Part shown: positions 30 to 13,271 of the stretch, piece after piece
Position numbering within the stretch: position 1 is the stretch's first letter
Layout of the letters: each line of letters starts with the position of its first letter
Source: Desulfurococcaceae archaeon
GTDB lineage: Archaea; Thermoproteota; Thermoprotei_A; Sulfolobales; Ignisphaeraceae
Reading direction: 5' to 3'
Assembly: GCA_020832925.1 (NCBI GenBank)
Contig: JAJHRF010000017.1
Span: forward strand, 1-33,696
DNA: 33,696 bases
Program-made: the position numbers and the translations under genes
Notes under the pieces: generated by a model
What the model saw: the letters and a program-made list of their open reading frames with translations, nothing else
What the model was told of the DNA's origin: nothing
Databases searched by the model: none

Positions 30-1034
30 CTTTCTCTACCCCTTCCAGGAGTTTCAAGATTTATGAGCTCGCGTTCCCAGTAGTCACTGACTTAACGCTA
101 TCTTTCTACTCCCTTTTGGGAGTTTCGGTGAGGAAAGGGGAGGTGAGGGCCTGCTCTACCCAGATATAACTTTCTACTCCCTTTTGGGAGTTTCTAAAAA
201 AAATGTTTCGGCTCGGGGAGATCTACGGAAAGGTTTCGCTCTTTCTACTCCCTTTTGGGAGTTTCGGGATGCCTGTATTCACAAACGAGTTACAGGTAGC
301 GTGTGTTCTACTTTCTACTCCCTTTTGGGAGTTTCCTCTGTACATCTCTTTTTTCCTTATCTTCCCTTTGGTTATCTCGATAACCTTTCTACTCCCTTTT
401 GGGAGTTTCGCTTAAGAGGTTAGCATAATGCTGATCGTCATAGCCGTGGCTTTCTACTCCCTTTTGGGAGTTTCGGACATTATCTGCATCGTCTGCTGTT
501 GCATAGCTATAAATTGTGTTCTTTCTACTCCCTTTTGGGAGTTTCTATAGCTTATTTTTCTCTTTAACGAGTTGTTCAACCTCTTGCTCACTCTTTCTAC
601 TCCCTTTTGGGAGTTTCAAGGGTGATGTCTATACCGTGGCTAACTATGTGGGGATCACTAACTCTTTCTACTCCCTTTTGGGAGTTTCACCCCTTACATA
701 GTTGGCGGTACGGTTAGAGACTTCCTCATCTTTCTACTCCCTTTTGGGAGTTTCCTCTATTATAATTTCAGCATCCCCAACCTTCACACGTACTGCATTC
801 TTTCTACTCCCTTTTGGGAGTTTCGGGAGAAGATAGAGAGAACGGTAGAGGCATTCACATCGCTTCTCAACCTTTCTACTCCCTTTTGGGAGTTTCTGTT
901 TTTGATTTATTTACGGCAAAGACCAAACGACACAAGGTAGTACTTTCTACTCCCTTTTGGGAGTTTCTCTATTCGACTACAGCACAGCCAAAAACGTCAC
1001 GACACCGCTCTTTCTACTCCCTTTTGGGAGTTTC
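30..1034 (-). CRISPR. CRISPR array 1 (14 perfect repeats plus one degenerate), transcribed leftward
   Basis: Perfect 25-bp repeats start at 102, 170, 241, 311, 385, 450, 521, 593, 664, 730, 800, 872, 943 and 1010. In the transcribed (minus) sense each begins GAAACTCCC and ends GGGAGTAGAAAG, so CTCCC and GGGAG can form a hairpin around an AAAA loop and leave an AGAAAG-type 3' handle. Spacers are 40-49 nt. A diverged 26-nt copy at 30-55 lies farthest from the leader, as expected of the old trailer end. Orientation follows from the A/T-rich sequence right of 1034, which matches the leader of array 2 in inverse orientation. The array may continue left of the window, though the degenerate copy suggests it ends here. 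Confidence 0.98.
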
Positions 1035-1214
1035 CGATTCCTGTGCTATTTAAGATCTATATATGTTTATCTATAAAAATTTTTATGAATATGGTGAGAA
1101 CATCTATAAAATTATCACTTAATTATGCTATAATTGTTCTAATGAAATAGAATTGACTTAAAATAAGTGTTCTGATGAGCTGATGTAAAGAATTGAACTT
1201 GAATGTTCTGATGA
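1035..1214 (-). promoter_or_regulatory. Leader of CRISPR array 1
   Basis: Read on the minus strand, the 58 bp next to the first repeat (1035-1092) match the same stretch of the array 2 leader (12146-12203) at 50 of 58 positions by eye. They include TATA-like TTTTTATAG and CTTAAATAG. Farther out are three copies of the 11-mer TCATYAGAACA (minus sense) at 1135-1145, 1168-1178 and 1204-1214, that is 100, 133 and 169 bp from the repeat. The same interval is the upstream region of csa1, so the motifs could act on both the array and the adaptation operon. Confidence 0.85.
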
Positions 1215-1297
1215 TTAGGAGTTGAGAATACATCATAGATAGAATAGAATGAGATGAGCGAAACTGTGGTGTTCCTCGGCGACAGGTTTTTGTTTCT

Positions 1298-2116
1298 GTG
1301 GTAATACTTGCTGTTTTGGTGGTGTTTTTGTTCCCTAGGTGGGTTTGGGATTTTATCAGGGTTGTTGGTGGTGAGGTTGTTGCTGAGGTTAGGGGTTGGA
1401 GGTTTGATGTTGTTAGTCCTAGGTTTGTTGCTAGACCTAGTATATCTGATGTTACTAGTCCTTGTCTTGTTAAAAGAGATGTTTGGCTTAGGAAGGTTGC
1501 TAGGGTTAGGGTTGATAGCGTTGTTTTTGTTTTGGGTAGGGTTGTTCACGAGGTTTTCCTCTATCCGTTTAGGTATGTTAATGAATCTCTATGGGATATT
1601 GTTAGAGGTTTTGATAGGTTTCTCAATTCCTTGAATTCTTCTGTTAAAAAGTATAGAGATGTTTTTTACAAGTTGTTTAGGAAAGCTCTTGCTTTTGCTC
1701 TTTACAGTTCTGAGGAAGGTATACCTATATCTGTTGAGCCTATGATACCTGCTGCAGCTATAGGTTTATCGGATTATGTTAAACCTGATCTTATGGTGGG
1801 TTTCATACCTGTAGATATAGCTTTAGCACCTTCTAGTGATAAAGGGTTTGAGAGGAAAGAGCTTGCGTTAGCTGGATACGCTTTAGCTATAGAGGCATGG
1901 ACTGGTCATCCTGTAGACTACGGTGTAGCTATATATGTTAACCTAGGTGATGCATCTCTTAACTGGAAAGTTATCAGGATTGACGATAGCTTGAGGAGGG
2001 TGTTTCTAGAGACTAGGGATAGGGTAGCTATGATCTTGGAGCACCCAGAAGAACCTCCACAACCAGCTGATCAATGTCCTCAGACATGTCCATATTTCGA
2101 GGTTTGCAGAAGATGA
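1298..2116 (+). CDS. csa1: Csa1 (Cas4-like nuclease-family protein of type I-A adaptation)
   Basis: Csa1 is a Cas4/RecB-type protein found in type I-A adaptation operons, where it is thought to help prepare spacer DNA. Family marks visible here are the N-terminal VRGW segment, SISDVTSPCLVKRDVWLRK, then GRVVHEVF, and a C-terminal cysteine cluster CPQTCPYFEVC that would hold an iron-sulfur cluster with the earlier cysteine. It is the first gene of a tightly packed operon: its TGA overlaps the ATG of cas1 by 4 bp. The start is unsure. GTG at 1298 gives 272 residues and GTG at 1322 is an alternative; neither has a clear ribosome site. The first 300 bases are strikingly G+T rich on the coding strand, unlike cas1. 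Confidence 0.88.
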   Translation: MVILAVLVVFLFPRWVWDFIRVVGGEVVAEVRGWRFDVVSPRFVARPSISDVTSPCLVKRDVWLRKVARVRVDSVVFVLGRVVHEVFLYPFRYVNESLWDIVRGFDRFLNSLNSSVKKYRDVFYKLFRKALAFALYSSEEGIPISVEPMIPAAAIGLSDYVKPDLMVGFIPVDIALAPSSDKGFERKELALAGYALAIEAWTGHPVDYGVAIYVNLGDASLNWKVIRIDDSLRRVFLETRDRVAMILEHPEEPPQPADQCPQTCPYFEVCRR

Positions 2117-3105
2117 AGCTATTCTTTATTTCAACACCTGGCTCTAAGATTGTTGCTAGGAAAGGTGGGCTATACATAGTTAAGAAAACTAGCGGTGGTA
2201 TTGAGAGAATAGCTGTTCCTCCTGATGTCGATGCAATTATTATTGCTTCTTCTAGAGTAGGGATATCATCGAAAGCCATCAGGTTAGCAGCTTCCAGAGG
2301 TATAGACGTGGTTTTCCTCGATTTCGCTGGGTACCCGATAGCAAGGGTCTACCCTCCATATATAAACAAGACTGTTGCTACAAGAGTTGCCCAGTATAAA
2401 CTTTTCTTAGCGAGCTACGGTAGGAAGCTTGCTAAAGAGATTGTCTACATCAAGATCGTTAACCAAGCTGAGCTTGTTAGATACCTAGCTAAAAACTTTA
2501 GAGATCAATCTCTAAGAGAAGAAGCGTATAGAATAGACTCTATAGCTGTAGACGTGAAGAACATGGATAACGATAAGCTAGATCTAGATAACCTTAGATC
2601 TATAGAAGCTAGAGCTGCGAAGATATACTGGCAAGTAGTTTCCTACGTACTACCTAAAAACCTGATGTTCACAGGTAGAGACCACGATTCCCGAGACCCC
2701 TTCAACATGGCTTTGAACTACGGCTACGCAATACTCTACAACATCTGCGAGAAAGCTCTACTTCTCGCAGGTTTCGATCCATATCTAGGTGTTTTCCATA
2801 CACCTAAAAGCGGTAAACCATCTCTAACACTAGATTTCGTAGAGATGTTCAGAGTAGTAGCTGTTGATAAACCTCTTATAGTGAACGCTAAGAAGATAAA
2901 GTTTGAGATTTCCGAGAACAAGCTTGACTACGAAACTAGGAAAGAAATCGCGAAAATCGTTCTAGAGAATATCTCTACAAGCTATTTCTACCAGAAGATC
3001 GGTAGAAAACTCGAGCTAGGGGAGATAATTAAGAGAGAAGCTTGGGATCTTGCTAGCTGTGTTAGAGAAGCTAAGGATTACAGAGGATTTAGGGTGGTGC
3101 TATGA
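2113..3105 (+). CDS. cas1: Cas1 integrase of the CRISPR adaptation complex
   Basis: Cas1 with Cas2 inserts new spacers at the leader end of arrays. The start is ATG 2113 (MKLFFISTPG), which overlaps the csa1 stop as ATGA and gives 330 residues, a usual Cas1 length; a longer open frame to 2074 exists but would overlap csa1. Metal-binding residues are in place: Glu165 in SIEARAAKIYW, His229 in GVFHTPKSGK, and Asp241/Glu244 in LDFVEMFR. The N-terminal beta domain (about 1-85) precedes the helical catalytic domain. Its stop overlaps cas2 by 4 bp, so translation is probably coupled along the operon. Confidence 0.98.
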   Translation: MKLFFISTPGSKIVARKGGLYIVKKTSGGIERIAVPPDVDAIIIASSRVGISSKAIRLAASRGIDVVFLDFAGYPIARVYPPYINKTVATRVAQYKLFLASYGRKLAKEIVYIKIVNQAELVRYLAKNFRDQSLREEAYRIDSIAVDVKNMDNDKLDLDNLRSIEARAAKIYWQVVSYVLPKNLMFTGRDHDSRDPFNMALNYGYAILYNICEKALLLAGFDPYLGVFHTPKSGKPSLTLDFVEMFRVVAVDKPLIVNAKKIKFEISENKLDYETRKEIAKIVLENISTSYFYQKIGRKLELGEIIKREAWDLASCVREAKDYRGFRVVL

Positions 3106-3386
3106 CGAGCTACGTTATCGTAGCCTACGATATATCGGACGATAGGAAGAGGTTAGAAGCTTCTGAGAGACTTAAAGGGCTCGGTTTTACCAGGGTTCAG
3201 AAGAGTCTATACGTAGCTAGAGGAGGTTATACTCTAGCTAAAGAAGCTTTTAGAGCTCTCCTAAGGATAGTGGATAGTTCTAGAGATAGCCTTTTCGTTA
3301 TCGTAGTCCCTAGAGAGAGTTTCGAGAAAGCGTTTACCTACAAGTTGCAGAGTGAGCTAGGTGAGGATAGATCAAGAGTTCTCTAA
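3102..3386 (+). CDS. cas2: Cas2
   Basis: Cas2 is the small ferredoxin-fold partner that bridges Cas1 dimers during spacer integration. The 94-residue length is normal. The N-terminal strand YVIVAYDISDD carries the conserved aspartate (Asp10), followed by the basic helix DRKRLEASERLKGLGF and the strand RVQKSLYVARG. It starts with an ATGA overlap on cas1 and ends with TAA at 3384-3386, where the reading frame of cas4 continues. Confidence 0.97.
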   Translation: MTSYVIVAYDISDDRKRLEASERLKGLGFTRVQKSLYVARGGYTLAKEAFRALLRIVDSSRDSLFVIVVPRESFEKAFTYKLQSELGEDRSRVL

Positions 3387-3955
3387 TACCGATTACACTA
3401 CTTAAAGAGTATGCTTACTGCCCTAGGATAGCTTACTATAAGCTATTCAGTTTACACGAACCTGTTACAGAGTCTATGAGGTTCGCGAAGACAGCTACAC
3501 CAACTCTGGTAGAGTTGGTGGAGATAGTCAAGAACTTTATTGAAGAAGAGTTCACACTTCTATTCGAAGTACCTGTTGAATCTAGGTCTCTAGGGGTCTG
3601 GGGCAAGGTAGATGCTGTAGCTATAACGAAATCGGAGGCTATACCTATAGAGATTAAGCTTACAACATCTCCTGAGAAGCTAAAGAGATTCGCTATACAT
3701 CATGTAGTACAGATAGTTGCCTATGCATTAGCTGTTGAAGAGACTTTCAGGTTACCTGTTAGAAGAGTTCTCGTGGTATCGGTGGAAGGGAATACAGTTT
3801 TCCAGTTCACAGTAAACCCATCTTTTAGAGAGTACGTGTATAGATTATCTAGAGAACTTCGTAGAGTTGTAGAGGATGAGAAGATCCCTAGCCCTACCCC
3901 CAGTAGGAGGAGATGTAGAGCTTGTTTCTATAGAAAGTTCTGCTCTAGGTTGTAA
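3386..3955 (+). CDS. cas4: Cas4 exonuclease, start codon not canonical
   Basis: Cas4 is a RecB-family iron-sulfur nuclease that trims prespacers and selects those with a PAM. Visible marks are the first cluster cysteine in KEYAYCPRIAYYKLF, GKVDAVAI, PIEIKLT, the QIVAYALAVEE helix, and the C-terminal cysteines in CRACFYRKFC. The first ATG in frame (3476) would leave out the N-terminal cysteine, so translation must begin earlier. The frame is open from 3371, yet 3371-3475 contains no ATG, GTG or TTG. ATA 3386, which overlaps the last base of the cas2 stop, and ATT 3392 are candidate non-AUG starts. A frameshift out of cas2, a sequencing error, or loss of the true start are alternatives. The 3' end overlaps csa3a by 11 bp, tail to tail. 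Confidence 0.88.
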   Translation: MPITLLKEYAYCPRIAYYKLFSLHEPVTESMRFAKTATPTLVELVEIVKNFIEEEFTLLFEVPVESRSLGVWGKVDAVAITKSEAIPIEIKLTTSPEKLKRFAIHHVVQIVAYALAVEETFRLPVRRVLVVSVEGNTVFQFTVNPSFREYVYRLSRELRRVVEDEKIPSPTPSRRRCRACFYRKFCSRL

Positions 3956-4541
3956 ACATTCTACCTGTATCGTTTAAACAGTATGTATATCTCCTCCCAT
4001 TTCTATAGCAATCAACTAAACCAGCTCTCGATAACTCTGAAATTCTTCTACGAACAGATTCCACAGGTATAGAGGTTTTATTAGCTATATCGTTGCTCGT
4101 CGAACAGCCGAATCTTAGAGCTTTAACTATATCCAGATCTCTTAAACTTCTGATCCAGAGCCTAGGCTTACCGTAGAATTCTCTTAGCCTACCTCTGTAG
4201 TAGAGAGCGAGAGGTTCTAAAGAGAATTTGTTGAATGGTTCTAAAGTTGCTAAAGCTATGAAAGAGAATACCGTTGCTGTAGCTGTGTAAGGGTCTAGAG
4301 TTTCCGCTACAACTACCCTTACCTTCTCGAAGTTTGTTGCATAGCTTATAGCTGTTGAAACAGCTTTAACTATATCGGAAGACTCTACGAAAACCGTGTC
4401 AACATCTATATCTATACCTGTATCTACTCCCGAGCTTCTCCCGTAGAGAAAGACTATGGCGAGGGATTCCTCATCAACACCGATAGACTCTATAGCTTCT
4501 CTAAATCTCCTTGTGTAAGGTATAATTACTAGCTTTCTCAC
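3945..4541 (-). CDS. csa3: Csa3a-type regulator: CARF domain plus winged helix
   Basis: Csa3 proteins are CARF-wHTH regulators. In Sulfolobus, Csa3a activates adaptation genes, and the CARF domain senses cyclic oligoadenylate. The first ~125 residues look like the CARF fold, starting with the strand MRKLVIIPYTRRF. The C-terminal part (about 135-195) is a winged helix: IVKALRFGCSTSNDIAN, VESVRRRISELSRAGLV and the wing YRNGRRYTYCLN. It begins with GTG immediately after the TAG of cas6, so it is the last gene of the leftward interference operon although it faces the adaptation operon. The name Csa3a rests on position and fold only. Confidence 0.88.
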   Translation of the reverse strand: MRKLVIIPYTRRFREAIESIGVDEESLAIVFLYGRSSGVDTGIDIDVDTVFVESSDIVKAVSTAISYATNFEKVRVVVAETLDPYTATATVFSFIALATLEPFNKFSLEPLALYYRGRLREFYGKPRLWIRSLRDLDIVKALRFGCSTSNDIANKTSIPVESVRRRISELSRAGLVDCYRNGRRYTYCLNDTGRMFTT

Positions 4542-5366
4542 CTACCCACCCTCATCAGCTCTAGATGTTTTCCTACTTCTAGGTGGTAGAACTCTAAATC
4601 TATAGAATCCGAATCCTATACCTCTAGACTTACCTACACCTACAAGAGATCCAAACTTTAGTAGATCTACGAAATCCCTGAGATTCTCAAGCCCGGTAAC
4701 ACCGAAGAGTGCTCTACCCATAAAAGCTTTCACAACCCTACCTCTACCTATACCTATACCCACAACCTCTGTACAATCCTTAATAAGCTCGATATTCCTA
4801 GACAAAACCCTAGCTCTCCTCTTAGCTAGCCTAGGATCGAGGTTAAGAAGACCAGTTGCAAGTTTCAGTAAATTGAAAACTATTCTCTGAGGAGATGGGT
4901 ACAGAACTCTCCAACCACGGAAAACAAGTATAGTTGGGTAGAAGAAAACCTCTACAACACCTTTAGAATCAACATCGATAAAATTGATAAAATCCTCAGC
5001 CCTACCACCGGGAAACACATCGATAAACTCATAATCAATACTCTGAACAGTGAAAGGACCTACAACACCGTTACCTAAAGAGGTAAGGAAATGCGAAGGA
5101 AAGTTTCTACAAAAAGAAGTCAACCTAAACAAAACCCTAGACCCAGCATCAAGAACAACACCATCAGAATCACCAACAAAACCACTCAAAACAACACGCA
5201 AACCTTTACCAGAAACAACCTGAAGAGGAGATAAAGAAAAACCACATCCAACCTCATCAGAACTCATCAAATTTTTAACAATTGAAGCTAAGAAACTACC
5301 AGACCAAGCAACAAGAGGAACACTCTCCCTAACAACAGCAGAAACCCTAAAAACATGTAGAGGCAT
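4542..5366 (-). CDS. cas6: Cas6 CRISPR RNA endoribonuclease
   Basis: Cas6 cuts pre-crRNA within the repeat. The C-terminal glycine-rich loop GVGKSRGIGFGFYRF is the family signature, and the protein shows the two-RRM-fold length of about 275 residues. ATG 5366 (MPLHVFRVSA) is preferred over the longer frame to 5411 because it sits just after the cas3'' stop and has AGGAGAAGG upstream. The hairpin in the repeats is a plausible substrate. The 5' half of the gene is very G+T rich on the coding strand, unlike its neighbours. Confidence 0.88.
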   Translation of the reverse strand: MPLHVFRVSAVVRESVPLVAWSGSFLASIVKNLMSSDEVGCGFSLSPLQVVSGKGLRVVLSGFVGDSDGVVLDAGSRVLFRLTSFCRNFPSHFLTSLGNGVVGPFTVQSIDYEFIDVFPGGRAEDFINFIDVDSKGVVEVFFYPTILVFRGWRVLYPSPQRIVFNLLKLATGLLNLDPRLAKRRARVLSRNIELIKDCTEVVGIGIGRGRVVKAFMGRALFGVTGLENLRDFVDLLKFGSLVGVGKSRGIGFGFYRFRVLPPRSRKTSRADEGG

Positions 5367-5370
5367 AGAG

Positions 5371-6183
5371 CTACAACCTTCTCCTAGCTTGTGAAGCTGC
5401 CCAACCATCACATAAATTGATTAGACCTGTTATAGCCTCGACAATGCATTTGCCTAGAGTTACACGATTCAAAGCCTTGATATCGCGTTCTATAACATCT
5501 TTGTAGAAGCCCATGACAATCATTTCACTAGCCTTATAGCTATCACTTCCAAAGTACTTCCCAACATTCTCTAACGTGTTCATCAAGGCATTGGCAAGAC
5601 CCCTAATTCTCTCACCAAAACTAAACGTGTTTAGTGAGCTCCTTAAGCTTTCTACACATTCTGGGTAGATCCTAGGCTCTTCAAGGAATTCTAAAGCCTC
5701 TTCATGACCCTCTATGCTATAGCTTTTGTAGCCTCTGACCTGGTGATAGTGGTGAAGAATTACAGGTAGCAAGATCATCACCCCAATGATTTCCTCCTTT
5801 GAAAGCTTATCAAATTGATCCTCTAGAAATCTCTTTATACTCTCCTTGCTAACCTCTAACCCACTCAAATTAAGTGCTAAGCTGAGTAGGAATGCTGATA
5901 CTAGGTAGTGACCCTTAAAGCTTGTGCATAGACCCTTAGAGCACTTCTCCTGGTAGATGCTAGCAACCTTACCAATGTCGTGAGCCAGTGCAGCAAAGAC
6001 TATAGAGTCCTTAGCAGTGGCTGTATCTAGCCCTAGAAGCCTTGATACCTTCCTAGCTAATGCATCAAGCTCCCATCTCTTTAGGCAGTAACTCGCAGTT
6101 GCAGTAAGATGTTCAGAGAACTTCTCCTCTACACCCTTAGCACTCTCCCTATACGCGTAACACATAGGCTTACCGCCTAACAA
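5371..6183 (-). CDS. cas3'': Cas3'' HD nuclease
   Basis: In type I-A the HD nuclease of Cas3 is a separate protein that degrades target DNA with the Cas3' helicase. The HD pair is in ALAHDIGK (His68, Asp69), with further histidines at His25 (SEHL), His92 (KGHYL) and the LHHYH stretch. Length (270 residues) fits a stand-alone HD subunit. TTG 6183 is supported by GAGGT seven bases upstream and overlaps the cas3' stop; ATG 6165 (MCYAYRESA) is the alternative. It lies between cas3' and cas6 in the interference operon. Confidence 0.92.
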   Translation of the reverse strand: MLGGKPMCYAYRESAKGVEEKFSEHLTATASYCLKRWELDALARKVSRLLGLDTATAKDSIVFAALAHDIGKVASIYQEKCSKGLCTSFKGHYLVSAFLLSLALNLSGLEVSKESIKRFLEDQFDKLSKEEIIGVMILLPVILHHYHQVRGYKSYSIEGHEEALEFLEEPRIYPECVESLRSSLNTFSFGERIRGLANALMNTLENVGKYFGSDSYKASEMIVMGFYKDVIERDIKALNRVTLGKCIVEAITGLINLCDGWAASQARRRL

Positions 6184-7942
6184 GCCCTATACCTCTTCTA
6201 TAGCACTCCTCCCTAAAAACATAACCAACAAATACTGGTCTAATTTGCTTGCCCCTCTCCTTGCCGACCCTGCTAAAGAACTCTGCACACTCTCTCTGAA
6301 GCTCTGTAACATACCTTAGCTCTGCAGAGCATTTCGACACAATGGTTTCATCGATTTGCACTACACATGCTACTCCCTCTACACAACTCCTAAACAAGTT
6401 AAGCAAGTCGTAGGAGTATGATATGAGACCTGAGATAACATCCTGCACCGACTTTGCATCATAGAGCCTTTTCATGCCATATACATAGAACTGCGCTAAA
6501 GGGCTCCTCAAGATGCTGCCATACCTTCCATACTCACTCATAATAATGTCTATGTAATCTGAAGGAATTGTTACTGGTGTTACTAGCCACCTAAACATGT
6601 TCTCAGCTTCCTGATCCTCGCGAAGCATTGCTGATGAGAGCTCTAGAAGCTCCTGATACCCTTTAACCTCTTCTCCCCTATCACTGCTGTAGCTATAGGG
6701 AATCCTCCAATCAATGTTGCTGTGACTCTTAACGAAGGAGACGAGCTTCACAGCATCTGTATATGCTAACTCGTTAGGTGCCTTGCTAGGTTTTATAAGG
6801 TAGACACTGCCTTCACAATCATGCCTAGCTCTGCAAACCCTTCCAAAAACCTGTACAGCTGATGGAATGTTGGTGGCATCCCTAAACCCAGCATCGAAAT
6901 CCCAGTCAACACCCGCTTCAACAATTGGTGTTGCAACAACCACTTTAGCTCTTCTTGATGCATCTAATGCTTTCTCTCTATCCTCTAGACACAGCCTTCC
7001 ATGTATAAGCACCTTCTCACTCTCGTTCAGATCTAGCTTGCTGTAAAGCTCTACAGCATCCTCAATCCTATCCCTAACAACAAGCACCTTCTCACCTCTC
7101 TCAACATGCTCCATAACCTTAGACACTAGCTCACTCTCCTCAATAACTTGTGTATGCCACTTAATCGATTTTGCATGGTTTTCGAACTCTCTATCCCTAA
7201 CACAGATCCTGTGTCCATTCTTACCATCCTCTCTACATATTGTGAAGAACACAGCCCTATTACTGCTCCAACTAGCTACCTTTTCTCTAAACCCACTCCA
7301 TAGCGTTGCTGAAGCCACTATAAGTGGTGTCTCAGTTGTAAGGCTAAACTCGATCAAAAGCTTTAGAAATGCAAGCATCTTCCCCGAAGACTCGTCATCA
7401 AATCTATTAATCATGTGAGCCTCGTCAAGAAACACGGTGGATGTGAATATCCTTGTCCTCGGTATTGCGTAGTGCTTTATCTCCCTATACACCTCATTAA
7501 CTGGTATTCTCAGGAAGTTTAGCGCGAACGAGTCTAGGGTTGAGATAACGATTTTAGCATCGTATGCGGGGCTCTTAATACCAACGCCTCTGAGCATGTA
7601 GTCAAAGCCCATCTGGTAAGCAACATCATTCTCGCTCACTCCCATACTCCTTAAAGCTTCGTAAAATGGTTTTGGAGGTTCAGCTCTACATGCAGGGACA
7701 TTGCGTCCCAAGGCATAGAGGTATTTACATACGTAGAGATCCTCAACTATTGCTCGTAGTGGAAGAACATGGATGAGATTGTAGGAGAAACCCTTCTCAT
7801 TACTAATGTAAGCAATTATTGGTGCTGATACAGACTTTCCATACCCTGTAGGAGCCTCGATAACAGGTATAGCACTAACCCTATCCAACCTATTGATGTA
7901 ATTGATGACTTCATCAATGAGCTTCTTGCTAGACTCAATCAA
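6170..7942 (-). CDS. cas3': Cas3' helicase
   Basis: Superfamily 2 helicase that unwinds target DNA for the HD nuclease. Motifs run in order: Walker A APTGYGKS (about 30-37), DEAH (173-176), SAT (211-213), VVATPIVEAGVDWDFD (about 335-350) and the motif VI sequence QVFGRVCRAR (364-373). No HD domain is fused; that function is the next gene. The start is TTG 7942, with GAGGAGAT about eight bases upstream on the minus strand. Length 590 fits stand-alone Cas3'. Confidence 0.95.
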   Translation of the reverse strand: MIESSKKLIDEVINYINRLDRVSAIPVIEAPTGYGKSVSAPIIAYISNEKGFSYNLIHVLPLRAIVEDLYVCKYLYALGRNVPACRAEPPKPFYEALRSMGVSENDVAYQMGFDYMLRGVGIKSPAYDAKIVISTLDSFALNFLRIPVNEVYREIKHYAIPRTRIFTSTVFLDEAHMINRFDDESSGKMLAFLKLLIEFSLTTETPLIVASATLWSGFREKVASWSSNRAVFFTICREDGKNGHRICVRDREFENHAKSIKWHTQVIEESELVSKVMEHVERGEKVLVVRDRIEDAVELYSKLDLNESEKVLIHGRLCLEDREKALDASRRAKVVVATPIVEAGVDWDFDAGFRDATNIPSAVQVFGRVCRARHDCEGSVYLIKPSKAPNELAYTDAVKLVSFVKSHSNIDWRIPYSYSSDRGEEVKGYQELLELSSAMLREDQEAENMFRWLVTPVTIPSDYIDIIMSEYGRYGSILRSPLAQFYVYGMKRLYDAKSVQDVISGLISYSYDLLNLFRSCVEGVACVVQIDETIVSKCSAELRYVTELQRECAEFFSRVGKERGKQIRPVFVGYVFREECYRRGIGLVRR

Positions 7943-7969
7943 CTTTCTATCTCCTCTTTGGGGAGAGGT

Positions 7970-9043
7970 CTAGGCAACCAATCTATAGAAGTTCATTAGC
8001 TCTGCCACTATCTCGCTCCAGCCAGGAACCTTCCTACTCTTCACATAGTACTGCGCCCCCTCCTTATTCAGCTCATTTGATGTTAGGAACCTGAGGATTT
8101 CATAGATGTATATAGGCTTTCTAAAGCTTTGGAACTTGAGCAGGTTCTGCGATAAAACCTCTACAAATCTCCTTAAGTTGTTGAACTCTTCTGGTGGGTA
8201 ATTACGTAGAAGCATGTAAACAGTTCTCGATGTTCTGCTAGCCCTGAGTATCCTGATAAGCTGAATTATGTCCACGCTGTCAAAGCCCTTAAGCAAGACC
8301 TTCTTCTCTGTTCGCGAGATCCTAATGAAGTTTGCCACTACATAACCGCCTTTCTGCACAATATCTCTAGATATCTTTCCAAGGTGTAGAGAAGCTACAG
8401 AGGCTATACCAACAATAACAGAGGCTATGCTACCATTCCTCGCCATAATAGCTTTGGTAATGCTCTTTGCAGCTCTCTCCATCTTCCTCACTTTCTGAGT
8501 TATGGGAGCAAAGGGGGCTACATCTATGTATACATAGCCATACTCTCCGCCAATAGCATATGCATTAAGCAGGTAAGCACCTATAACTGATAGAGCTAGA
8601 ACCTCCTCATCCACTAGGAACAGATCCCTCTTAGCCTTTCCAGGACCCATAAAGGATCTTACATACTCAGCAAACTCTAGGGAGAGGGCTGGTGGAAGTA
8701 CCATTCCACCATGCATGTGACCCGTTAGGAACTCTGTCAATACTTTGTGAGCGTAGCAAAGATTTAGCTTGTCCTTGGGATCATTACGTGTTAAAGCGAG
8801 GGGGGCTATACAAGGATCCTTATTTCTGCTCCTAATAGCCTCTATCTCCTCAGAAACACATCTATTCACCTCACCAATAATCTGATACATGTTTTGAGCA
8901 TTCAACTCCTCAAGCCCTCTCTGCGCACAGAGCTTTAGCGCAGCTTCAGAGAAGTATGTGAAGATGTAGCCTCGGTACCTCAATAAGTTATCAAGAGTCA
9001 CTACAGCCTTGACATACGATTTTTTAGAGCCTTTGCCGGTCAC
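7970..9043 (-). CDS. cas8a2: Cas8a2 / Csa4, large subunit of the type I-A complex
   Basis: The 357-residue length and the position between cas5 and cas3' match Csa4 (Cas8a2), the large subunit that helps recognise the PAM and recruit Cas3. The sequence is a mostly alpha-helical protein without catalytic motifs, containing segments such as HMHGGMVLPPALSLEFAEYV. The start is GTG 9043, with GGGGTTGAT upstream. The assignment rests on context plus overall family look, since this subunit diverges fast. A Cas8a1-type relative is possible. Confidence 0.8.
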   Translation of the reverse strand: MTGKGSKKSYVKAVVTLDNLLRYRGYIFTYFSEAALKLCAQRGLEELNAQNMYQIIGEVNRCVSEEIEAIRSRNKDPCIAPLALTRNDPKDKLNLCYAHKVLTEFLTGHMHGGMVLPPALSLEFAEYVRSFMGPGKAKRDLFLVDEEVLALSVIGAYLLNAYAIGGEYGYVYIDVAPFAPITQKVRKMERAAKSITKAIMARNGSIASVIVGIASVASLHLGKISRDIVQKGGYVVANFIRISRTEKKVLLKGFDSVDIIQLIRILRASRTSRTVYMLLRNYPPEEFNNLRRFVEVLSQNLLKFQSFRKPIYIYEILRFLTSNELNKEGAQYYVKSRKVPGWSEIVAELMNFYRLVA

Positions 9044-9059
9044 AGCACATCAACCCCAG

Positions 9060-9842
9060 CTACATGAGGACCTTTCTTGGGACAGGAACCTCAAGAAGCT
9101 TATCATCTAGGTTTACACTAAGTACAGCACCATTCGCGTTTAGCTCAACGGTTGCTTTAGTGAGTATAGGTGTGAATGGCTTGGGAACCACAAACCTTTC
9201 GGTGGATACAGTCTTCTTTATGAAGTTCTCCTTTGCAAGTGTAGGCATCTCAACCTCTACCCACATATCCTTTGGATCATAGTCCTTGGCTATTGATAGC
9301 GGGAAGTAGAAGAATGTGTCACACCTCTTTTTGCTGAGATCAACAAGCTCCTTTACTGGTGCTACAAAGACTCTATCTACAGATACTAGAGACTCTTTCC
9401 TGCCAATCCTCGTCATTGCATAGCTGTATCGGGCCAAGATATCGCTAGCAACAATGAATAGTATGTAGAGTTTCCTCACTAAGACCTGATGCCTAACAGC
9501 CACAGTGTACGTCATCTCCTCTCTCTTCCAATGCTGTTTCCTTAGGTATGGATGCTGATACACTCTCTCAATAGTGCTGACAATTGTGAAAGGCTCGCCT
9601 ACACCTGCAACTGCGTAGCGAACCAAGCCCTGCTCTACAAGCTCAACAGCTGGCGATGCTCCATCATCCCTAAGCTCCCTGAAGTCACCAACAGACTTTC
9701 TATATGCATATGCTAGTGCTCCTACAAGTGTTGTTGGTGGTGGTAAGAAGTATGCATTTGCTGAAGTGCTTGAATATGGTGTGTACACAGATAAAAAGTT
9801 GTATGGGGTTACCTCAACTATTACCGTGTAGAGCTCTGGCAT
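9060..9842 (-). CDS. cas5: Cas5, type I-A complex subunit
   Basis: Cas5 caps the 5' handle of crRNA in the interference complex. The N-terminal RRM strand MPELYTVIVEVTPYNFLSV and the conserved stretch FLPPPTTLVGALAYAYRK are typical of crenarchaeal Cas5a. Length 260. It starts 2 bp after the TAA of cas7 and ends 16 bp before cas8a2, so it is co-transcribed. No catalytic role is expected because Cas6 is present. Confidence 0.93.
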   Translation of the reverse strand: MPELYTVIVEVTPYNFLSVYTPYSSTSANAYFLPPPTTLVGALAYAYRKSVGDFRELRDDGASPAVELVEQGLVRYAVAGVGEPFTIVSTIERVYQHPYLRKQHWKREEMTYTVAVRHQVLVRKLYILFIVASDILARYSYAMTRIGRKESLVSVDRVFVAPVKELVDLSKKRCDTFFYFPLSIAKDYDPKDMWVEVEMPTLAKENFIKKTVSTERFVVPKPFTPILTKATVELNANGAVLSVNLDDKLLEVPVPRKVLM

Positions 9843-9844
9843 GG

Positions 9845-10822
9845 TTAACCCTGGAACTTTTGCTCAACAACCTCCAAAACCTTTGCCACTAACTCAGATA
9901 CGCTATCAACCTTGGTAACCTCAACTGTGCTAGGCTTTACCTCCTGCACTACACCCTCTCTATCCATGTAGAACAGCTTTACCCACTCCCCAACATCACT
10001 AAAGAGCTTAACGAAGTTCTCTGTCCTGCTAATTGTCTTAGTGATGTAGTTACCGTCTCTAGATACCCTAGCTGGGGTAACCATGAATGGCACTGGATGA
10101 GATACTGCCGCTATTGCTCCAACAACCTCTTGTATTGGTAGGTACCTAGCCTTCTTAGCTCCGAACATCAGTCCCTCTACAAGTCCTGCAATAGCCTGTA
10201 TAGCTGTCTTTACCCTATCAAGCCTGTTAGCTACAACAGGTTTTGGCTTCCCATCCTTATCAGCTACAACACCTATCTTATCAATGTCTAGAGCTATGCC
10301 AAGCACGTAGATAGCTGTGCCTGCCTCTACCTGGAATGGCTGAGGCTTCTCACCAGGCTTAGCAGCTCTTACATGGAATTGAGGCTCTATAGCAGCTTCT
10401 GAGAAATCTATGTCTGGCACCATGTAGCTGAGCTGAATTGCTGATGTTCTTCTAACACCTGCTCTTGCTTGAGCGATCATGAACCCTGTCACATCCTCAA
10501 CAATGCAGTTCCTCACAATAGTCTCTTCATCTCCGCTAGTATCTGTACCATGCTTTACGAATCCTCCCTTAACCTCATAACCTCTACACTGATCACATAC
10601 AGGCAAGTTCTTCTGCAGAGCTAGAGCAACAAGAGTCTTCATGTAGCCATAGGCTATCGCCTGACCAGATACAGCAGGTGCTATGACAAGCCTGTAGCCC
10701 TTTCCATCACCCCTCGGCTTAAGCAAGGACACTGTCCTATGCCTGCTGTAAGCACCCATTGCCTCAACCATGTTTAGAGCTTCAACCTCAACCCTTAGCC
10801 TTAGGCTCATGGATAGGAACAC
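9845..10822 (-). CDS. cas7: Cas7 / Csa2, crRNA backbone subunit
   Basis: Cas7 forms the helical backbone along the crRNA. Family features are the N-terminal strand RLRVEVEALNMVEAMG, HRTVSLL, the PAVSGQAIAYGYMK segment, and GVRRTSAIQLSYMVPD. GTG 10822 has GGTGA six bases upstream and gives 325 residues; ATG 10810 (MSLRLRVEVEA) is an alternative inside the same frame. It follows csa5 by 19 bp and is in turn 2 bp from cas5. Confidence 0.95.
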   Translation of the reverse strand: MFLSMSLRLRVEVEALNMVEAMGAYSRHRTVSLLKPRGDGKGYRLVIAPAVSGQAIAYGYMKTLVALALQKNLPVCDQCRGYEVKGGFVKHGTDTSGDEETIVRNCIVEDVTGFMIAQARAGVRRTSAIQLSYMVPDIDFSEAAIEPQFHVRAAKPGEKPQPFQVEAGTAIYVLGIALDIDKIGVVADKDGKPKPVVANRLDRVKTAIQAIAGLVEGLMFGAKKARYLPIQEVVGAIAAVSHPVPFMVTPARVSRDGNYITKTISRTENFVKLFSDVGEWVKLFYMDREGVVQEVKPSTVEVTKVDSVSELVAKVLEVVEQKFQG

Positions 10823-10841
10823 TTCTTCTCACCCCCATAAC

Positions 10842-11123
10842 CTACTGAGTCTGAGTTTTTGGAGCAGATGTGAGTGCTATTATTGCTACTCTCTGTGCTA
10901 CACCAGGATTCTTTTCAGCCTCTGTCAGAAACTCATCAACCTCCTTATCTGGTGGCAGATTCCAGCCCTCTGTAGTGGCAATCCTCAATGCTTCGTATAG
11001 AGCCATCCTAATCATTTCAGGGGATAGTGCACGTGCAAGCCTGTCTATGGGTCCATACCTCCTGTTCTCGGCCAGTTTCTTAAACACCTCTACAATGTTT
11101 GGAAACCTCTCCAACACAGACAT
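10842..11123 (-). CDS. csa5: Csa5 (Cas11a), small subunit
   Basis: Csa5 is the small helical subunit of the type I-A complex. ATG 11123 (MSVLERFPNI) is chosen because GGTG lies five bases upstream; a GTG at 11138 would add five residues and use up that site. The 93-residue helical sequence includes RRYGPIDRLARALSPEMIRMA. It is the first gene of the leftward interference operon; a TATA-like element at 11158-11168 would put transcription start about 13 bases before the ATG. Confidence 0.85.
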   Translation of the reverse strand: MSVLERFPNIVEVFKKLAENRRYGPIDRLARALSPEMIRMALYEALRIATTEGWNLPPDKEVDEFLTEAEKNPGVAQRVAIIALTSAPKTQTQ

Positions 11124-11157
11124 TTTCGCACCAAGCACTTTATACTCTACATTGACA

Positions 11158-11168
11158 CTTATATAAAC
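11158..11168. promoter_or_regulatory. Palindromic TATA element between csa5 and the second csa3
   Basis: The sequence CTTATATAAAC contains the palindrome TTATATAA (11159-11166). On the minus strand it lies about 26 bp before a start point near 11136, giving csa5 a short leader with GGTG. On the plus strand it would give a start near 11188, upstream of the second csa3. A separate candidate for that gene is TTATTTTG near 11228. Confidence 0.55.
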
Positions 11169-11279
11169 CTGTCTCTAATCAGTTTAATGAGGAGTCCACT
11201 AACAATTTAAGTGAGTAAAGTAACAGCTTATTTTGCTGCACTCTTTACAGTCTACTGCAGTTGCATAGAGGTGCCGCGA

Positions 11280-11915
11280 GTGAACCTCATAACAACTCTA
11301 GGGTTTGACATTTCGCACACCCTCCTAGTACTAACAAAAGCAGGGGTAAAACCATCGAGGATAGTAGCAATTGTTGGCATGGTAAGAAACGAAATTGATT
11401 CAAGGGCTGAGACGGCATACACAATGCTGAAGCAATTTGCAAACATGATCGGCGTTAGCATAGAGAGAGTAGATGTTGAGGTTACAGACGTTGAGAAAGC
11501 CATTGAGAAGATACTAAGCGTACTCGATGAAAATGCACCAGCAGTTCTAGACATTGGCGGAGGCCTAAGACTACTTGTGCTAGAGACTTTCATAGCATAC
11601 CAACTCCTAAACCCGCAAAAGAGAAGCAGTATAACGCTCTACATAGCACTTGAAGGAAGAAACGAGGTTCTAAACATAGATTTCGAGAGAATTAGAAGAA
11701 GACTACTTGTAAGCAAAAGGCTTAGCGAAACACATAGAGAAGTACTGAAAATAATTGAGGAAAAAGGAGAAGCAACACCAAAGGAAATACTAGAAGAACT
11801 AAACAAAAGAGGAATCACCATGACAAAACAGAAACTATCAAAAATACTATCAAAACTAACATCACTAGGACTAGTAGAAAGAGAAGAAAGAGGAAAATAC
11901 AGGCACAAAACATAA
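11280..11915 (+). CDS. csa3: Second Csa3-type CARF-wHTH regulator (Csa3b position)
   Basis: The N-terminal half is CARF-like, beginning with the strand VNLITTLGFDISHTLLVL and carrying APAVLDIGGGLRLLVLE. The C-terminal half is a winged helix with THREVLKIIEEKGEATPKEI, a recognition helix in TMTKQKLSKILSKL, and the wing VEREERGKYR. I take GTG 11280 as start because GAGGTG lies at 11268-11273 and the CARF strand begins there. The frame is open back to GTG 11211, which would add 23 atypical residues. It is divergent from the interference operon and reads into the array 2 leader, the position where Sulfolobus Csa3b, a repressor of interference genes, is found. Its 3' half is A-rich compared with its 5' half. 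Confidence 0.85.
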   Translation: MNLITTLGFDISHTLLVLTKAGVKPSRIVAIVGMVRNEIDSRAETAYTMLKQFANMIGVSIERVDVEVTDVEKAIEKILSVLDENAPAVLDIGGGLRLLVLETFIAYQLLNPQKRSSITLYIALEGRNEVLNIDFERIRRRLLVSKRLSETHREVLKIIEEKGEATPKEILEELNKRGITMTKQKLSKILSKLTSLGLVEREERGKYRHKT

Positions 11916-12023
11916 ATATTTAAACATAGGATCATCTCTAAGCAATGCAATCCAAATGGATTAGTTTACCACAGTTTCACTGACCTCATTCAGCTCTTTC
12001 TTTAACAGTGTTTCTATTCTATT

Positions 12024-12203
12024 TCATTAGAACAGTTATGGAACATTGGATTGTACATAAAATTGGAACAAGTATTTTGTTTCAATTCTTTCTCATTAGA
12101 ACAGCCATTGCTTGGCTATGCAATGTTCTTACGATTGTTCTTATGATATTCATAAAGATTTTTATAGATAAGCATAAATAGTTCTTAAATAGCGCAAGGA
12201 TCA
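12024..12203 (+). promoter_or_regulatory. Leader of CRISPR array 2
   Basis: The 58 bp before the first repeat match leader 1. The 11-mer TCATTAGAACA occurs at 12024-12034 and 12093-12103, with a weaker copy (8 of 11) at 12060-12070. Their distances to the first repeat (169, 100 and 133 bp) equal those in leader 1. TATA-like TTTTTATAG and CTTAAATAG lie within 55 bp of the repeat. The 108 bp between csa3 and this leader show no gene. Confidence 0.85.
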
Positions 12204-13271
12204 GAAACTCCCAAAAGGGAGTAGAAAGGCACATCAAATATGCTTGGCTTCAGTAGCGTGAGCACAGTCGAAACTCCCAAAAGGGAGTAGAAAGCTGTGA
12301 AGGCGAAGGAGCTGAGGGGTGAGAAGAAATGATCATACGAAACTCCCAAAAGGGAGTAGAAAGTCCACGGGTATGGGATCCAGTGCCCCTTCTCCCAGTC
12401 AATTACAGAAACTCCCAAAAGGGAGTAGAAAGCCTCTAGAGACTTTTGCGAATGGCTCTGTCGCATAGGTTGAAGGCAGAAACTCCCAAAAGGGAGTAGA
12501 AAGCATGCTTGCTAGGGATGTTGTTGAGCAGGCGATTACAAGGCTCTTGAAACTCCCAAAAGGGAGTAGAAAGTAACACTGCTGCTTTCATACATAACAT
12601 CGCTTGTATCACCAGGAAACTCCCAAAAGGGAGTAGAAAGACACGATTACGAGCTTAACTATCTGGTCGAGTATTGCTGGGTCAGCTCCCTTAGCTAGAA
12701 ACTCCCAAAAGGGAGTAGAAAGAGAAAAAAAGATTGAGATAGATATTAAAAAGGTTGTGTTTTAGACCGAAACTCCCAAAAGGGAGTAGAAAGACCTGTT
12801 TGCCGAGCTAGAGCCCGGAATGACGTTTTGCGAGGGAAACTCCCAAAAGGGAGTAGAAAGAGTTCATCTCTACCGAATGGATCTAGACGTGGTCTACCTG
12901 CTGAAACTCCCAAAAGGGAGTAGAAAGGTTTCGAGAAACGCTCGATACCTGTCGTGGTATCGGTTCCAAGGAAACTCCCAAAAGGGAGTAGAAAGAGAAC
13001 TTGATTTGCTTCGGGGACCAGTTCGCTATATACTTCTCCGAAACTCCCAAAAGGGAGTAGAAAGTTTGCAGCATTTGCTTGTTCTTGCCATGCTCCTCAT
13101 CTTTTGCATGAAACTCCCAAAAGGGAGTAGAAAGAGCGAAGAGCTATACAGAGACGCATTAAACGAGATTCTTAAAATCATGAAACTCCCAAAAGGGAGT
13201 AGAAAGATCTTGATCAGCTCTTGTGCTAGCCACAGAGTTATCTTACGAAACTCCCAAAAGGGAGTAGAAAG
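12204..13271 (+). CRISPR. CRISPR array 2 (16 perfect repeats), transcribed rightward
   Basis: The 25-bp repeats are identical to those of array 1 and start at 12204, 12270, 12339, 12408, 12479, 12549, 12616, 12698, 12769, 12836, 12903, 12971, 13040, 13110, 13182 and 13247. There are 15 spacers of 40-47 nt, except one of 57 nt at 12641-12697. The last repeat is still perfect, so this array shows no trailer decay. I saw no spacer shared with array 1 and no obvious match to the rest of the window, but a search was not possible. Confidence 0.99.

Follow-up and report, generated by a model that had tools for sequence, protein, structure and literature searches.

The type I-A locus and its two leaders

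The window analysed here, a stretch of 33,696 nucleotides from a Desulfurococcaceae archaeon (GenBank assembly GCA_020832925.1, contig JAJHRF010000017.1), carries a type I-A CRISPR-Cas locus made up of csa1-cas1-cas2-cas4 together with cas3', cas3'', cas5a, cas7a, cas8a and cas6, with a small gene in the position of csa5. The locus is flanked by two CRISPR arrays of opposite orientation with the common repeat GAAACTCCCAAAAGGGAGTAGAAAG: array 1 (102..1034, minus strand), in which 14 repeats were read and which continues towards the window edge, and array 2 (12204..13271, plus strand) with 16 repeats. The gene csa1 (1298..2116, plus strand; TIGR01896, start codon uncertain) diverges from the leader of array 1, and the adaptation operon of cas1, cas2 and cas4 (2074..3955, plus strand) was recognized by profile matches. 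Each leader contains a block of four 11-bp sites of the type TCATYAGAACA, three in direct and one in inverted orientation. This four-site architecture is conserved above its flanks, recurs in distant genera and changes its letters in a coordinated way, and on sequence grounds a single protein that controls CRISPR memory very probably docks on the block.

In leader 1 the direct sites lie on the minus strand, with the distal site TCATCAGAACA (1204..1214) ending 169 bp away from the first repeat, whose last base is 1034, the middle site TCATCAGAACA (1168..1178) at 133 bp and the proximal site TCATTAGAACA (1135..1145) at 100 bp. Leader 2 repeats this arrangement on the plus strand: its distal site TCATTAGAACA (12024..12034) lies 169 bp from the repeat at 12204, a degenerate middle site AAATTGGAACA (12060..12070), the counterpart of which in the leaders of genome G001 is AAATCAGAACA, lies at 133 bp, and the proximal site TCATTAGAACA (12093..12103) at 100 bp. 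A preliminary description had reported these positions and distances, including that of the degenerate copy, and they were correct on re-reading of the sequence. All three of its copies are borne out, but the set was incomplete, as an inverted fourth copy had been missed at 1092-1102 and 12136-12146. This copy, TGGTGAGAACA in leader 1 (1092..1102, plus strand) and TCATAAGAACA in leader 2 (12136..12146, minus strand), stands 57 bp from the first repeat in each leader, 41-43 bp downstream of the proximal direct site and just upstream of the B recognition element (BRE) and TATA box, a position that it also holds in related leaders. The putative TATA box TTTTTATA, predicted from the archaeal promoter consensus, is found at 1072..1079 (minus strand) in leader 1, with an A-rich BRE upstream, and at 12159..12166 (plus strand) in leader 2. 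No sigma-70-like promoters or terminators were found in the window, nor are they expected in an archaeon. Leader 2 has an extra inverted site, TCGTAAGAACA (12124..12134, minus strand), 69 bp from the repeat and common only to the G001 leaders of leader 2 type.

A second conserved element, the A box TCAAYTCYTT, occurs at about -204, -181, -152 and -112 in most leaders. In leader 1 the A box TCAATTCTAT (1147..1156, minus strand) stands upstream of the proximal site, with further A boxes at 1187-1196, 1216-1225 and 1239-1248; in leader 2 TCAATTCTTT (12082..12091, plus strand) holds the same place, with further A boxes at 12013-12022 and 11990-11999. Read on the opposite strand, the TCAAYTC portion of these boxes (1147-1248, 11990-12091) is GARTTGA, which comes near AATTGAA, the Cbp1 core in the repeats of Sulfolobus; this Cbp1-core-like sequence is absent from the repeat of the genus itself.

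The spacings of 33 and 36 bp had been read in the preliminary description as near three helical turns and thus as a sign of binding on one face. At 10.5 bp per turn, 33 bp amount to 3.14 turns, 36 bp to 3.43, 69 bp to 6.57 and 43 bp to 4.10. We reject one-face binding because these spacings do not fit whole turns (36 bp in particular), so that on linear B-DNA the three direct sites do not all share a face. Conserved as the spacing is, a shared face is not the reason.

Conservation within the genus and beyond

Leaders 1 and 2 are clearly homologous, with a nearly gap-free alignment of the ~220 bp adjoining the array. Motif-agnostic shuffles gave three related 11-mers within 230 bp in 5 of 150 trials for leader 1 and 58 of 150 for leader 2; since the series is only moderately rare in the first case and not rare in the second, one leader alone is weak evidence for it. 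The four-site geometry score, by comparison, was reached by none of 100 shuffles for either leader. Exact matches to TCATYAGAACA number five in the window, three in leader 1 and two in leader 2. Over 11 genomes of the same genus, 29 matches fall in leaders and ~19 elsewhere; because a reversed control pattern gave 24, the motif outside leaders is at chance level. When leaders 1 and 2 are compared in the region of the sites, 28 of 47 flank positions are changed, whereas the distal and proximal copies together show 1 change in 22 positions and the middle copy 4 in 11.

We read 21 leaders from eight genomes of the window's genus, which is probably Ignisphaera, the arrays being found by the same repeat. 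The 36/33-bp spacing of the direct sites is exact in 17 of the 21 while the intervening sequence has diverged, and the direct triple lies at -169/-133/-100 or is jointly shifted to -180/-144/-111, -179/-143/-110, -168/-132/-99 or -166/-130/-97. Three leaders of genome G009 have an outer pair 70 bp apart and a degenerate middle copy, and one leader of G006 is broken. The inverted copy, TGTTCTNATNA, stands 43 bp from the proximal site in most leaders (17); three leaders have it at 41-42 bp, and in the broken G006 leader the distance is 58 bp. Across related leaders it adjoins an A-rich BRE and a TTTTTATA-like TATA box, and its distance to the latter is kept (one base longer in G009), the segment from TATA box to repeat having an 11-bp insertion in G004 and G005. 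The earlier claim of fixed distances thus holds for the spacing between sites, but the offset from the first repeat varies among leaders of the genus, by -3 to +11 bp; in most leaders the block stays within 1-2 bp of its position relative to the repeat, and its spacing is not locked to the leader-repeat junction.

When a three-tooth comb is slid along the leaders through 88 shifts, its information content peaks at [169,133,100]; of the 11-bp windows in the leader, none is better conserved than the two at -169 and -100. Within groups of close relatives, the columns of the TCATYAGAACA-type sites (B columns) vary less than the flanks in groups that have Cas1 (3/33 versus 22/47, p=0.00025; 1/33 versus 13/47, p=0.003; two further groups at p=0.06 and 0.08). 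In G004 and G005, the two genomes where both Cas1 and a full-length Csa3 are missing, these columns vary like the flanks (6/33 versus 9/47, p=0.58). With small numbers and related leaders within each group, these comparisons are suggestive only.

The arrays L053, L055, L057 and L058 of G005 and G004 have 19-42 repeats and well-formed four-site leaders with no adjoining cas genes. At a contig end (L132, G008:C5:1-230) the first CRISPR repeats are abutted or overlapped by a fragment of Cas1, an arrangement that looks as though the adaptation operon had been cut into the array. The window's own genome, G000, has another array starting at a contig end (L018, G000:C86:14785-14885) with the variant repeat GAAACTCCCATAAGGGAGTAGAAAG, which is also the form in G004 and G005.

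An exact-letter two-site pattern run over 214 genomes of the order matched only in G000 and G002 and missed relatives later found by geometry; a scan of viral contigs, to which no weight is given, yielded nothing. For the geometry search we fetched csa1-anchored loci from 84,980 species genomes and applied a scan that assumes spacings of 35-38, 32-34 and 42-44 bp (the last to the inverted site), leaves the letters free and scores the mutual resemblance of the four windows against shuffles. In four leaders of other genera the observed score was reached by no shuffle. Thermoproteus sp. CP80 has TCATCGGAGGC, TCTTTAGAGGT, TCATTAGAGGG and inverted TCATTGGAGGG (score 51, shuffle maximum 42), with all four sites reading GAGG in place of GAACA; Vulcanisaeta distributa has TCGTGGGAACA, ACAACAGAACA, CCGTGGGAACA and inverted CTATCGGAACA (44, maximum 39); and the Thermoprotei metagenome-assembled genome (MAG) B12_G16 from Guaymas has ACCATCAGAAC, ACCATAGGAAC, AACATCAGAAC and inverted GTCATTGGAAG (46, maximum 36). 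In the uncultured Sulfolobales MAG S1_Bin_78 the distal site is degenerate and is followed by CCATCCGGACA, TCATCCGGACA and inverted CCATCCGGACA (46, maximum 38), a less independent positive, as the leader boundary was set after the repeated CATCCGGACA had been seen and an earlier cut inside the array scored negative. In a second B12_G16 leader (L232:3222-3299) the three direct copies (35/32) stand ~65 bp more distant from the repeat than elsewhere, and an inverted site is not evident. G022 (score 36, shuffle maximum 35, off the expected place) was counted as negative, and the scan did not find the four-site block in the remaining testable I-A-like leaders, which have other repeat types. In all block-positive leaders the repeats end in TAGAAAG or TAGAAGG, and the carriers fall in one Csa1 clade (support 100/100) of which G022 is the only tested negative.

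The spacing, nearly the same in these distant hot-spring archaea, thus outlives the letters, and the recognisable sites change their letters together, as expected if one protein reads them all. The preliminary suggestion that motif and spacing are selected is upheld by sites that diverge far less than their flanks and by a spacing kept in related leaders and other genera; among the leaders collected from the same genus the motif is neither missing nor randomly spaced.

Candidate readers of the sites

The best candidate reader is a Csa3-family regulator, in which a CARF domain is followed by a winged helix-turn-helix (wHTH) domain. In the window such a csa3 gene (11211..11915, plus strand) precedes the distal site of leader 2 by 109 bp, and its product has this domain order, matching TIGR01884 with 62.2 bits (cut-off 60.2) and PF22662 (Csa3_N) with 53 (cut-off 27). 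A second, divergent csa3-like gene (3945..4541, minus strand) adjoins cas4, the position of Sulfolobus csa3a; it has wHTH matches, and its matches to Csa3/CARF profiles are weak only and cover the wHTH part. A phmmer search of the PDB with both window proteins returned no Csa3 structure among its matches. A further adaptation gene lies elsewhere in G000, which encodes a second, divergent Cas1 (39% identical) at C72:2852-3787 (L134).

At six Ignisphaera loci (G000, G001 twice, G002, G006 and G009) the block is preceded by csa3 at a distance of ~30-130 bp. Upstream of the Vulcanisaeta and CP80 blocks lie remnants of csa3 or a fragment of it at a contig edge, and the B12_G16 and S1_Bin_78 genomes encode a full-length Csa3. 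The Vulcanisaeta csa3 (L181:4279-4904) is apparently split into overlapping frames, by a frameshift or as a pseudogene, and the leader there keeps its block. Other blocks are divergent from csa1, behind cas4 (L186) or alone. The proposal that the sites link array and adaptation control through csa1 is borne out in so far as csa1 diverges from such a leader at every readable Ignisphaera csa1 locus, but a csa1-specific link is not supported, because the same block is also found in leaders far from csa1.

Csa3a of Sulfolobus islandicus binds the leader at -143 to -94 and interacts with Cas1, and mutation of its leader site lowers acquisition (PMC9456107); it also binds the csa1 promoter and activates the adaptation genes (PMC4333418). 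With a probability of roughly one half, we interpret the block as an operator read by a Csa3-family regulator encoded beside the leaders, which would control array transcription and probably spacer acquisition, a task that falls to a single Csa3a site in Sulfolobus. One sequence-specific protein would occupy the three tandem sites, whose starts are 36 and 33 bp apart, and the inverted site 41-43 bp further on, which abuts the BRE/TATA of the array promoter. On four fixed sites such a protein could build a nucleoprotein complex upstream of the promoter and so switch array transcription, possibly under the control of cyclic oligoadenylate. By analogy with S. islandicus Csa3a, the complex may also help to license spacer integration at the first repeat, and where csa1 diverges from the leader it could act on csa1-cas1-cas2-cas4 as well. 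A transcriptional role in the first place is mildly suggested by the position of the block, which follows the promoter and not the repeat.

Several observations weigh against a Csa3 reader. Csa3a of Sulfolobus solfataricus binds cA4, yet the purified protein was judged to bind DNA without specificity in vitro (PMC8699464), and the Sulfolobales Csa3a site TCCCN8GGGA (CAPPa) has no match in the window. The B motif is asymmetric, which is unusual for a dimeric wHTH protein, and a TTCTN8AGAA-like dyad is found in no more than two of three units. In this genus Csa3 and Cas1 occur together, so that either could explain the constraint and presence or absence cannot separate them. The near-complete genomes G004 and G005 keep the sites though no Cas1 and no full-length Csa3 was found in them, and the L186 leader has no adjoining csa3. 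As a lead only, the dyad TTCTN8AGAAC is present in 3 of the 6 leader units of the window and has about the size of the Sulfolobales Csa3a palindrome.

The sites might instead be recognized by the adaptation proteins themselves (Cas1-Cas2 with Csa1/Cas4) or by a host factor of archaea that steers integration to the first repeat, like integration host factor (IHF) and the upstream motif in E. coli. That the block follows one Csa1 clade and that its constraint is undetectable in genomes lacking Cas1 would fit such a reader, as would the requirement of integration in S. solfataricus for a host factor and at least 400 bp of leader (PMC5815122), and the coevolution of leaders, repeats and Cas1 in Sulfolobales (PMC4390879). 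The block is, however, locked to the TATA box and not to the leader-repeat junction, the triple of the second B12_G16 leader is displaced from the repeat as described above, and in S. islandicus the distal motif is not bound by Cas1, which binds the leader-proximal end (PMC9456107); we consider this reader unlikely, if a serious candidate. A CRISPR-dedicated transcription factor or chromatin protein other than Csa3, for example one like Cbp1/Cbp2 or a lineage-specific wHTH protein, could also drive the array promoter from the sites, and would account for the inverted site abutting the promoter, for the kept distance to the TATA box and for the persistence of the sites in G004 and G005. Cbp1 does bind sites in some Sulfolobus CRISPR promoters (PMC10883916), and the A boxes (TCAATTC) resemble its core, but the B sites are unlike the repeat that Cbp1 reads, a general factor sits badly with motif matches at chance outside leaders, and B constraint is not detectable in G004/G005, all of which makes such a protein improbable, though no search aimed at Cbp1 itself was made.

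It is very improbable that the copies have no function and were merely inherited, the leaders being duplicates of one ancestral leader. The near-gapless homology of leaders 1 and 2 and the weak single-leader statistics agree with inheritance, but the low divergence of the sites relative to the flanks, the resemblance of copies within one leader to each other and the persistence of the spacing in other genera with coordinated letter changes refute it as the sole explanation. Three other candidates were rejected: the units as inverted, degenerate CRISPR repeats or Cbp1 sites (compared with shuffles, their resemblance to the repeat gave p = 0.03 to 1.0 and was hardly ever significant), CAPPa as the motif (absent from the window) and a general transcription factor with many targets (non-leader matches at chance level).

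Relation to known leader elements

The four-site block is classed here with the known CRISPR leader regulatory elements. In type I-E and I-F leaders an IHF site and a phased upstream motif stand at conserved distances (cited in PMC5815122); IHF is not known from archaea. Such leaders are alike in having motifs at conserved distances but differ in that here four copies of one motif form a block that keeps its place relative to the promoter and not to the first repeat. The Csa3a site CAPPa of Sulfolobales leaders and of the csa1 promoter (PMC8699464, PMC4333418, PMC9456107) is likewise a CRISPR-specific leader motif upstream of BRE/TATA and near csa3, with the leader bound at -143 to -94 in S. 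islandicus, but it is a single palindromic site with other letters, whereas the present block has three direct and one inverted asymmetric site. For Sulfolobales leaders the published reports give a single Csa3a palindrome together with conserved motifs that are bracketed (PMC8699464, PMC4390879); the I-A leaders share with ours a conservation over about 230 bp and a coevolution with Cas1 and repeat, but a series of tandem and inverted sites is not described in the accessible part of PMC4390879. Cbp1/Cbp2 sites are also protein sites in CRISPR promoters that raise array transcription (PMC10883916), but Cbp1 reads a repeat-like motif and the B sites are not repeat-like. Multi-site, orientation-specific leader operators are not described in the accessible I-A literature, from which most subscription papers are absent, and novelty is accordingly not proven.

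A more far-reaching proposal, rather doubtful at present, is that the block may be the assembly platform of an archaeal counterpart of IHF, a multi-site and possibly cyclic-nucleotide-sensing Csa3 complex that would both fire the array promoter and deliver Cas1 to the first repeat, the platform travelling with one clade of adaptation modules and its letters coevolving with the protein. The block bears on what directs spacer integration and array transcription in the leaders of archaeal type I systems; with its natural variants GAACA, GAGG and CCGGACA, among which the recognisable sites have changed jointly, it is a precise and testable cis-element that may be used to identify the reading protein by swaps of sites and candidate proteins.

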